Assembly: GCA_945877505.1 (NCBI GenBank)
Contig: CAMDWT010000020.1
Location: forward strand, 1-35,007
Length of the DNA stretch: 35,007 nucleotides
Direction of reading: 5' to 3'
Source of the DNA: Crenothrix polyspora
GTDB taxonomy: Bacteria; Pseudomonadota; Gammaproteobacteria; Methylococcales; Methylomonadaceae
In this document: in pieces, positions 2,947-16,463 of the stretch
Position numbering within the stretch: position 1 is the first letter of the stretch
How the letters are laid out: every line of letters starts with the position of its first letter
Program-made: the position numbers and the translations under genes
Notes under the pieces: generated by a model
Told to the model about the DNA's origin: nothing
The model's database searches: none
Seen by the model: only the letters and a program-made list of their open reading frames with translations

Positions 2947-3085
2947 ATGAATGAGCTAATAAGATAGTGGTCAATATTGACATGAGCAAAGCGAAATTTT
3001 AACAGAAATCAGACGATTATGAGTAGGTTAATTTGAGGCTAAGCAACGTAAAGAAATAAAAATAAAATAGTAAGATGTTTTTGAC

Positions 3086-14361: not shown

Positions 14362-15102
14362 TCATTCAATTAAAATAGCCGATACGCAAGCATAACCAAT
14401 AGAATGAACTGTGGTAATTGGTAATTCACAGTCTAGAGCTTCCATGACTTTCTTTCTTAATCGACCGACTAATAAGGTCATTCTGCGACTACCATTCTGG
14501 TTATAGCGGCCCAATAATTTTTCAGCCAAAAAATGTTTATTAACGGTTTCGCCGCGTTTTAAAGCCAAAATATTGAGCAAGTTAAACTCTCGCGCAGTTA
14601 ATTGTAATGTTTTTCCGGAAGGTGCCTTGAGTAACCAGCCATTAGTGTTTAATGTCCAACCTACCGCATCGTTAAGCGAGGGAGTTTCTATCAAGTCTTG
14701 GCTTTGCCTGGTTGCGGCATAAATATTCGACAGTAACAAATCACAAGTAATCGGGTTAATTAAAAAACGATCAACTCCCTTATCTAAGTAAAATATCTTT
14801 TTCGCGCTACTAAAATTAGCATCAACAATTAAAATAATTATTAAGTCAGGATTAATGGCCAAATAACGCGAGATATCACCTTCAAATAAGATATTAGAAG
14901 CCTCGTCAAAATAGACGACTAAAACAGTAATGGGTTCATTTAATAAAGATTTGAATAAGGAAAAGCCATCTACGAATTGTTTAAACTTAAAATCAATGCT
15001 GCAAAAATTGACTTCCCATTCAGCTAATTTGAGAGGGTCATTGCTTAAAAAAGCAACGACTAATTGATTATGATGGATTGCATTATTATTATTATGACTC
15101 AT
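14362..15102 (-). CDS. OmpR-type winged-helix regulator with degenerate receiver
   Basis: 246-residue protein. Residues about 150-242 are a clear OmpR/PhoB winged helix (LQLTAREFNLLNILALKRGE, RRMTLLVGRLRKKV, ITTVHSIGYAC). Residues 10-130 have the beta-alpha pattern of a receiver, but its key residues are altered: the N-terminal acidic pair reads SND in place of DDD, and the Lys-Pro of strand 5 reads Asn-Pro (FLINPI). An aspartate is present after strand 3 (VVYFDEAS). Phosphorylation-independent signalling is therefore likely. No histidine kinase gene adjoins it; the next gene downstream is the LuxR regulator. Its promoter must lie in the repeat-bearing region to the right. Confidence 0.85.
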   Translation of the reverse strand: MSHNNNNAIHHNQLVVAFLSNDPLKLAEWEVNFCSIDFKFKQFVDGFSLFKSLLNEPITVLVVYFDEASNILFEGDISRYLAINPDLIIILIVDANFSSAKKIFYLDKGVDRFLINPITCDLLLSNIYAATRQSQDLIETPSLNDAVGWTLNTNGWLLKAPSGKTLQLTAREFNLLNILALKRGETVNKHFLAEKLLGRYNQNGSRRMTLLVGRLRKKVMEALDCELPITTVHSIGYACVSAILIE

Positions 15103-15329
15103 TATCCCAACCCCATATTTATCTTTAGTCCTTTATACTTTAAATATCCTAATTTTTAATGGTACATCAAATTACCTCAGTAATATTTCTAATAGGTTTA
15201 ATTTGAATTCTTTTGTGCCTATTGGAGGCATTTAAAATAATTTTTAGCTTAACTTCAACGTGTAAGTGAGCTGTATTTTTATGCCTTAGAGAGCTAGGGC
15301 TTCTATTATCCCTCACTTGTAATATAAAA

Positions 15330-15349
15330 CATCCCCTATTTGGGGGATG
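15330..15349 (-). terminator. Hairpin next to the AACTC repeat
   Basis: Arms CATCCCC (15330-15336) and GGGGATG (15343-15349) with a 6-base loop. On the minus strand it is followed by TTTTATATT, so it could act as a terminator or attenuator ahead of the response regulator gene. Confidence 0.5.
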
Positions 15350-15360
15350 AAAATATAATC

Positions 15361-15410
15361 AACTCAACTCAACTCAACTCAACTCAACTCAACTCAACTC
15401 AACTCAACTC
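15361..15410. repeat. Pentanucleotide microsatellite (AACTC)x10
   Basis: Ten perfect, uninterrupted tandem copies of AACTC (GAGTT on the minus strand). Non-coding, 259 bases upstream of the minus-strand response regulator start. Perfect arrays of this length are prone to copy-number change by slippage. Confidence 0.98.
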
Positions 15411-15594
15411 GGATCTTAGGACGTCATTAGTTGTTCAATTCTCGCGGATGTTCTTCCTAAGTGGTAAGCATAAAACCTCTTAACGACAAATGATGTCGTA
15501 TTGAATAAATAACATAAAGCGGGGTTCGGAAATAAGATTGGTATCAGAAAGTTTTTTGGATGTTGAGCTTAGTTTTTTTTATGTTTCATTAGGC

Positions 15595-15632
15595 AATAAA
15601 AAAACCCGCTAAGCCTTTCGACTTGCGGGTTT
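15595..15632 (-). terminator. Rho-independent terminator of the tRNA-Gly/tRNA-Cys unit
   Basis: Arms AAACCCGC (15602-15609) and GCGGGTTT (15625-15632). Read on the minus strand, the stem is followed by TTTTTTTATT. It lies 34 bases beyond the 3' end of tRNA-Cys. Confidence 0.85.
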
Positions 15633-15665
15633 CTGTTTGTCTTTGTACTTGTTTGAATCTACCCA

Positions 15666-15739
15666 TGGAGGCTGCGGGCGGAATCGAACCGCCGTAGATG
15701 GCTTTGCAGGCCACTGCATAACCATTTTGCTACGCAGCC
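15666..15739 (-). tRNA. tRNA-Cys (anticodon GCA)
   Basis: On the minus strand: acceptor stem GGCTGCG / CGCAGCC, anticodon stem GTGGC / GCCAT with loop CTGCAAA (anticodon GCA), T-arm loop GGTTCGATTCC, and encoded CCA. 74 bases including CCA. It is downstream of tRNA-Gly on the same strand, a pairing also seen in E. coli (glyW-cysT). Confidence 0.97.
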
Positions 15740-15752
15740 ATAAAGGTTAAAT

Positions 15753-15782
15753 AAAAAAGCCGCGATATTTCGCGGCTTTTTT
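15753..15782 (-). terminator. Terminator-like hairpin between tRNA-Gly and tRNA-Cys
   Basis: AAAAAAGCCGCGA (15753-15765) pairs with TCGCGGCTTTTTT (15770-15782): a 13-base perfect stem with a TATT loop and A/T tails, so it looks like a terminator on both strands. It occupies most of the 53-base spacer between the two tRNAs. Confidence 0.75.
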
Positions 15783-15792
15783 ATTTATATAT

Positions 15793-15867
15793 TGGAGCGG
15801 GAAACGAGATTCGAACTCGCGACCCCAACCTTGGCAAGGTTGTGCTCTACCACTGAGCTATTCCCGC
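15793..15867 (-). tRNA. tRNA-Gly (anticodon GCC)
   Basis: On the minus strand: acceptor GCGGGAA / TTCCCGC, D-arm AGCTCAGTGGTAGAGC, anticodon loop TTGCCAA (GCC), T-arm GAGTTCGAATCTC and encoded CCA. 75 bases. First tRNA of the unit, 19 bases from a consensus -10 box. Confidence 0.98.
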
Positions 15868-15885
15868 ACTGAAATCAATTCAGGT

Positions 15886-15913
15886 ATTATATATAGTTTA
15901 AAAATACTGTCAA
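15886..15913 (-). promoter_or_regulatory. Consensus sigma-70 promoter of the tRNA unit
   Basis: On the minus strand TTGACA (15908-15913), 16-base spacer, TATAAT (15886-15891). Both hexamers are perfect, the best promoter in the window, with a start expected about 12 bases before tRNA-Gly. Confidence 0.92.
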
Positions 15914-15926
15914 ATGTTATTTGATT

Positions 15927-16463
15927 TTATTGAATATCGATAGCTAAAGCCCAAGATTCATTGCCTTTGCATTCGCCATCTTCAATTCTGACCTTTGCGT
16001 AGGCTTTTTGTTTTCCATAAGCATCTGCAAATTCAAGAACAGATACAGGAGTTCCTTGAGCTATATGTTGGCAAGCACCTGATCTATCGGCTTCTTCGGT
16101 ATCATCATAAGCGGCAATTGCGCCAGGTGTGACGACTAAACGAACGGTTGCAGCAGGATCGTAACCATTAGCGCTTTTTAGTACGTAGCGTTGGCCTATT
16201 GCAAGATCTTTAAGGGCAGGTCCAGAAAGTGCAGGTTTTGCGCCATCGTCACCCATAGACATTAGTAACACAAGAAGTACCGCTACGCCGCCAATACTAC
16301 CAAAGAATACTTTAGGATTATTTTCTTTTAAGCTTAAAAAAGAAGAGATTAAGTTGCCAACACTATTTTTTGCAGAATCCATTAATTCGTTAGCATTTTC
16401 TTCTACCTTTACAGCGTCTTCTTGTGCGATTTCTTCTTGATTGGTGTTATCTTCGTTACTCAT
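15927..16463 (-). CDS. Hypothetical membrane-anchored protein
   Basis: 178-residue protein not recognised. Residues 1-50 are acidic and polar (EDNTNQEEIAQEDAVKVEEN), and about 51-69 form one membrane helix (VFFGSIGGVAVLLVLLMSM). The rest is a small, probably periplasmic, beta-rich domain (residues 90-178: IGQRYVLKSANGYD, VRLVVTPGAIAAYDD, YAKVRIEDGECKGNESWALA) with two cysteines that might pair; the pattern resembles SH3-like domains but I cannot name it. GAGGA lies nine bases before the ATG. The tRNA-Gly promoter starts 14 bases after its stop codon. Confidence 0.8.
   Translation of the reverse strand: MSNEDNTNQEEIAQEDAVKVEENANELMDSAKNSVGNLISSFLSLKENNPKVFFGSIGGVAVLLVLLMSMGDDGAKPALSGPALKDLAIGQRYVLKSANGYDPAATVRLVVTPGAIAAYDDTEEADRSGACQHIAQGTPVSVLEFADAYGKQKAYAKVRIEDGECKGNESWALAIDIQ

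Follow-up and report, generated by a model that had tools for sequence, protein, structure and literature searches.

The locus and its repeat

The window, as we call the whole 35,007-nucleotide stretch of DNA that was analysed, is contig C20 of a 126-contig, 2.46-Mb assembly that is 99.75% complete (genome G000). It carries pmoC-, pmoA- and pmoB-type genes by Pfam, whose models do not separate methane from ammonia monooxygenases. Since the A subunit is closest to particulate methane monooxygenase among solved structures (524.6 bits, versus 274.1 for the best ammonia monooxygenase), its sequence makes the host very likely a methane oxidiser. Across the whole window, the only RNA families that reach their gathering score are three tRNAs. 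The features around the repeat are as follows:

14362-15102, minus strand: OmpR/PhoB-type DNA-binding regulator, with Trans_reg_C at 163-238 and no Pfam receiver-domain match
15164-15178, plus strand: putative operator ACATCAAATTACCTC, with which RCATCAAATTRCCTC has its one perfect match in this genome
15330-15349, minus strand: terminator-like hairpin (7-bp stem, 6-nt loop, T-rich tail) that adjoins the tract and faces the regulator gene
15361-15410, plus strand: perfect tandem tract of ten AACTC units, 15359-15410 with a partial unit; the minus strand reads (GAGTT)n
15602-15632, minus strand: hairpin AAACCCGC...GCGGGTTT followed by a T-run, found by eye, its loop being longer than the scan allows
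15666-15739, minus strand: tRNA-Cys (gca)
15793-15867, minus strand: tRNA-Gly (gcc), with a 12/12 sigma-70 promoter match upstream at 15913-15886

A first-pass annotation of this DNA had described a perfect (AACTC)x10 array upstream of a regulator, and both parts of that description hold. Direct reading and Tandem Repeats Finder agree on 15361-15410, which the program extends to 15359-15410 (period 5, 10.4 copies, 100% matches, score 104; the top of 18 rows), and the start codon of the regulator ORF lies 258 bp away, with the tract upstream. Ten AACTC units have an expectation of about 1e-26 for the window under independent base composition, and three or more consecutive units appeared in none of 100 dinucleotide shuffles of it. 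No perfect repeat with units of 2-12 nt exceeds it in length in a 435,007-base sample of the genome, made up of the window and 20 stretches of 20 kb, where (ATCT)8.5, at 34 nt, comes second. A search for other (AACTC)n tracts, which the annotation had suggested, found the 18-mer AACTCAACTCAACTCAAC nowhere else in the 2.46-Mb genome; the backwards control for this 18-mer is not independent, as the unit reversed gives the same repeat. The (ATCT)8.5 tract is located at L232:3219-3252 on contig C16, between genes and upstream of a nucleotidyltransferase/HepT-like gene pair.

The DNA that holds the tract does not extend to relatives in any match that we found. The tRNA side is matched by 149 of 151 genomes, and among the matches listed none reaches left of ~15575; the two left flanks read in relatives hold other ORFs. 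Within its own genome the gap at 15100-15660 has three short matches at the tRNA terminator and is otherwise unmatched. Because there is no further genomic copy and the listed matches of relatives stop at or to the right of ~15575, we regard the gap as lineage-specific. No orthologous gap was found when DNA 14362-15590 was compared with 91 genomes, four of which were matched (its own, G024 through a piece of the regulator gene, and G025 and G032 through the repeat only), and a search of genome contigs restricted to close relatives, with the regulator as query, gave none. A mobile element in the gap was rejected, since beyond the matches at the tRNA terminator there was no other genomic copy, no match of the gap in a plasmid collection and no exact match of a 24-mer from the left junction in viral contigs.

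Candidate control sequences near the tract

Three of the closest homologues of the regulator in the genus are found in G024 (42%), G034 (39%) and G018 (38%). A comparison by eye of the DNA upstream of the regulator in the window and of its homologues in G024 and G034 showed the 15-mer RCATCAAATTRCCTC in all three. G000, G024 and G034 have one perfect match each, in every case upstream of the regulator, and G018 has none; as the pattern was built from the former three, its presence there is circular and only its uniqueness is informative. Allowing one mismatch adds two matches in G000, one in G024, one in G034 and five in G018, and a reversed-pattern control gave 0, 1, 2 and 0, respectively. 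In contrast to the copies of G024 and G034, that of the window reads against the direction of the gene. It stands between tract and gene, with 61 bp to the start codon and 182 bp to the tract. From this comparison we infer that the 15-mer is likely the control site, or operator, of the regulator. In the three-sequence alignment, the window regulator has a Tyr where G024 and G034 have the Asp that ends a VL(I/V)(I/V)D stretch, which by our reading would be the phosphorylation site; no Pfam receiver domain was matched in the window regulator or in either of these two homologues. The genes divergent from regulator homologues (L070:2402-3568, L071:200-1033 on the minus strand, and L072) encode signal-peptide-like proteins ending in VSPN, several of them Ala-rich, and the one in L071 belongs to no Pfam family. 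A neighbour of this type was not seen in the window.

The annotation had gone on to propose that a change in copy number would rotate upstream sites and tune the promoter of the regulator. The geometry behind this is sound, one unit turning the helix by ~171 degrees and two by ~343 degrees (10.5 bp per turn), so that a protein bound beyond the tract would be moved by about half a turn with each unit and odd and even copy numbers would give high and low expression. Such a mechanism is reported for nadA of Neisseria meningitidis, where repeat number alters operator spacing and leads to quasi-periodic expression (PMC2791445). The TAAA tract of nadA is likewise non-coding, upstream of a gene and made of a unit that is not a multiple of the helical turn; it differs in having operators on both sides and measured expression changes, whereas the only candidate operator in the window, at 15164-15178, lies towards the gene, 182 bp and the terminator-like hairpin away from the tract. 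AACTC-unit tracts that separate motif 1 from a sigma-54-type site in the relatives G025 and G255 (see below) speak for a spacer role, but between the window tract and the tRNA terminator we found no site that is conserved or recognisable, on a far side that has no relative for comparison and where sites could be missed. There is therefore nothing known at that position for a change in copy number to rotate, and the proposed tuning, which we find unsupported by these data, is an unlikely account of the tract.

Promoter predictions were evaluated at the tract itself. The best sigma-54 score between 15000 and 15700 was 16.5 of 22.5, versus 18.0 and 19.5 for the PEP-CTERM promoters of G025 and G255, and a sigma-54 promoter at the tract was rejected on these weak scores. 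There was no sigma-70 match between 15111 and 15868, which is weak evidence of absence given a promoter scan that found 5 sites against 3.5 expected by chance. A TATAAT at 15354-15359 on the plus strand abuts the tract, with no -35 element seen by eye.

The other strand raises the question of an RNA. Two terminator-like sites were found in 15000-16000 versus 0.9 expected from shuffles, so the hairpin at 15349-15330 is weak evidence by itself; it is present in the minimum-energy fold too. As it comes directly after the (GAGTT)n strand, it could end a minus-strand transcript, either a small RNA or a read-through tail of the tRNA operon, that would carry (GAGUU)10 near its 3' end and in which the number of units would set a binding platform. 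The region does fold slightly better than its shuffles (z -1.78), but 10 of 200 shuffles fold at least equally well, and no sigma-70 match lies between 15600 and 15350 to start such a transcript. Read-through is further opposed by the hairpin at 15602-15632, seen by eye, which is likely the operon's own terminator. Four matches to RNA families in the gap scored 11.4-18.8 bits, none of them near its Rfam gathering score, and a known RNA was rejected on that basis. Taken together, this leaves either form of an RNA role improbable.

A protein-level role at this position fared no better. Among ORFs of at least 20 aa, only a 47-aa TTG frame crosses the tract, which is no credible gene, and reading the unit shows that all minus-strand frames hit TGA within the repeat; for want of a credible ORF, the tract of the window was rejected as a frame switch or coding start. 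Compared with contingency loci built on simple sequence repeats (SSRs), the window has the perfect, slippable tandem tract. At the place of a coding start or between promoter elements, it has this 47-aa frame and no promoter elements recognised by scans that are weak. No surface or modification gene controlled by the tract was found, its neighbours being a DNA-binding regulator and tRNAs.

Pentamer tracts in other genomes

Arrays of this kind had been called rare in non-pathogen genomes. Since at least seven AACTC units occur in 82 stretches among 84,980 species, in a collection from which the window's own record is perhaps excluded, rarity is confirmed; the emphasis on pathogens is not, as most of the 82 come from environmental or gut organisms, judged by record titles. 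Ten or more units are present in 49 of the 82. The 18-mer is present in 6 of 237 genomes of the family, in a scan whose backwards control is again not independent, and three of these were informative about the setting in which such tracts may work.

In the first, a methanotroph relative (G217), AACTC tracts of 5 and 5 (L099), 7 (L100), 6 (L101) and 8 (L102) copies all lie within 8 bases of an ATG. When these five tracts were translated with 4-9 copies, a frame of 195-266 aa was open only at 6 or 9, and every open frame had a VPEAGEWAMMLLGLPL-type tail at its end; in the assembly, one of the five is open. The tract of L101 occupies 2972-3001 on the minus strand, and there are five paralogous PEP-CTERM-type genes in all. 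Exosortase is present in G217, and the open product matches PEP-CTERM models, though in each case short of the curated cut-off (NF038126, 46.4 bits, cut-off 50; NF035944, 21.2, cut-off 35). Because L101 and L102 differ in unit number (6 and 8) and are near-identical around the tract (560/560 bases after it, 195/200 before it), the repeat has changed faster than the flanking DNA.

A leader of 159 nt has six matches in G217, four at 97-100%, one at 82% and one at 88%. Each of the six is also a match to the c-di-GMP-I-GGC riboswitch model (E 5e-6 to 2e-4), with 33.7-39.1 bits that are below the Rfam gathering score of 59. These riboswitch-like leaders are located as follows:

L101:3064-3143, minus strand
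L102:3075-3154, minus strand
L099, two leaders
L100, one leader
L262, one leader, the sixth, whose following ATG has no AACTC tract

These sequences suggest that G217 likely has a multi-gene, translational phase-variation system, in which tract length would switch what are likely surface-protein genes on and off; given the placement of the tracts, slippage must change the protein frame. As the leaders match the c-di-GMP-I-GGC model, a switch that responds to a signal would be combined with a random one on the same gene. SSR phase variation seems to have been described mostly in host-adapted pathogens. The system would extend it to PEP-CTERM-type (exosortase-sorted) proteins of free-living methanotrophs, and in titles and abstract openings, mostly of non-subscription papers, we found no description of pentamer tracts at PEP-CTERM genes. 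A close parallel is with the Opa genes of Neisseria, whose CTCTT pentamers lie within the leader-peptide coding sequence (PMC3745409). Both the window and G217 resemble Opa in having a pentamer unit in a slippage-type tract, and G217 also in its coding position and multi-gene family; the window tract differs in being non-coding, single and outside a surface gene.

The other two genomes, G025 and G255, have 26 sites with at most one mismatch to motif 1, which occurs together with motif 2 in the sigma-54 promoters of PEP-CTERM genes (Haft et al. 2006, PMC1569441). In 5 of the 22 sites whose DNA was examined, a pentamer tract begins at the 3' end of motif 1 (L108 on both strands, L110, L116 and L124), its unit being AACTC in two, AATCC in two and CTTAC in one. 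Three of the five have a GG-N10-GC (sigma-54-type) site at 80-81 nt, with tract lengths of 31, 38 and 40 nt; the published spacer is 62.8 +/- 10.6 nt, and the consulted part of that paper makes no mention of tandem tracts within it (PMC1569441). The constant distance could mean that the total spacing is selected, an argument against free variation, though three cases decide nothing. A PEP-CTERM-like ORF, its tail recognised by eye, follows three of the five tracts, and a script found none after the other two. The model scan covered two of the three ORFs: that of G025 passes the TIGR02595 cut-off (21 vs 16), and that of G255 is below the cut-offs of the models it matched.

The window tract could in principle be a relic or an instance of this pentamer switch, with which it has the AACTC unit and the bacterial family in common. 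Its own genome contains no match to motif 1 (<=1 mismatch), unlike G025 and G255, and none to exosortase (PF09721), and the promoter relic was rejected on these grounds. The best score for PrsR (TIGR02915) is 335.1 bits, short of the cut-off of 502.6, only 6 of the 16 bases preceding the tract coincide with motif 1 by eye, and no credible ORF follows. Lacking motif 1, exosortase, a PrsR above cut-off and a following gene, the tract falls outside the PEP-CTERM system, and we give its descent from such a switch almost no credence. Nor does the link seem to belong to the unit generally: the 82 stretches (<=8 kb each) contain no motif 1 and, for a crude PEP-CTERM pattern, one doubtful match (L207), so that it looks specific to some methanotroph-family genomes. 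In G032 and G263, too, the tracts lack a PEP-CTERM setting.

Probable slippage and its likely consequences

The reading that we favour, with a probability of about 0.7, is a near-neutral intergenic microsatellite grown by slippage, with little or no effect on the regulator. A pentanucleotide repeat would have expanded through slipped-strand mispairing in the lineage-specific gap between the tRNA-Gly/tRNA-Cys operon and the regulator, and it probably still gains and loses units, so that the tract would be mutable in the window's species. The hairpin at 15349-15330 would act as a terminator. Little effect on the regulator is expected because its likely control site is near the start codon, with 182 bp and that hairpin between it and the tract. 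Of the earlier proposal, which combined slippage with promoter tuning, the slippage-type tract is retained, AACTC copy number differing between paralogous sites in G217, and the tuning is not. Like ordinary bacterial microsatellites, the tract is a perfect array of short units in intergenic DNA, although its ten pentamers make it the longest such array in the examined part of the genome. The (ATCT)8.5 tract is intergenic as well. An intergenic place also appears common for the AACTC unit, since 48 tracts of the 82 stretches from other species overlap no ORF of at least 80 aa in a crude scan (22 of the 82 lie within 300 bases of the end of their locus).

An error of assembly, in the unit number or in the tract itself, might be suspected in a genome of 126 contigs. 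At 52 nt, however, the tract is shorter than a normal read, and AACTC tracts recur in many assemblies, including that of G217 with its 3 contigs, which makes such an artefact very improbable.

Several observations count against near-neutrality. A perfect tract of 52 nt without decay could be very young or maintained by selection, this one adjoins a regulator, and the AACTC unit has a seemingly functional placement in G217, G025 and G255. A broader and improbable reading would make pentamer tracts a recurrent contingency device of the methanotroph family, one that toggles the spacing within sigma-54 promoters by half a turn and, behind c-di-GMP-type riboswitches, switches the reading frame of exosortase-sorted surface proteins; the window tract would have arisen independently and would toggle a transcription regulator instead. 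If that were true, the window tract would make a whole regulon bistable; taken alone, it would be a possible strain marker and little more.
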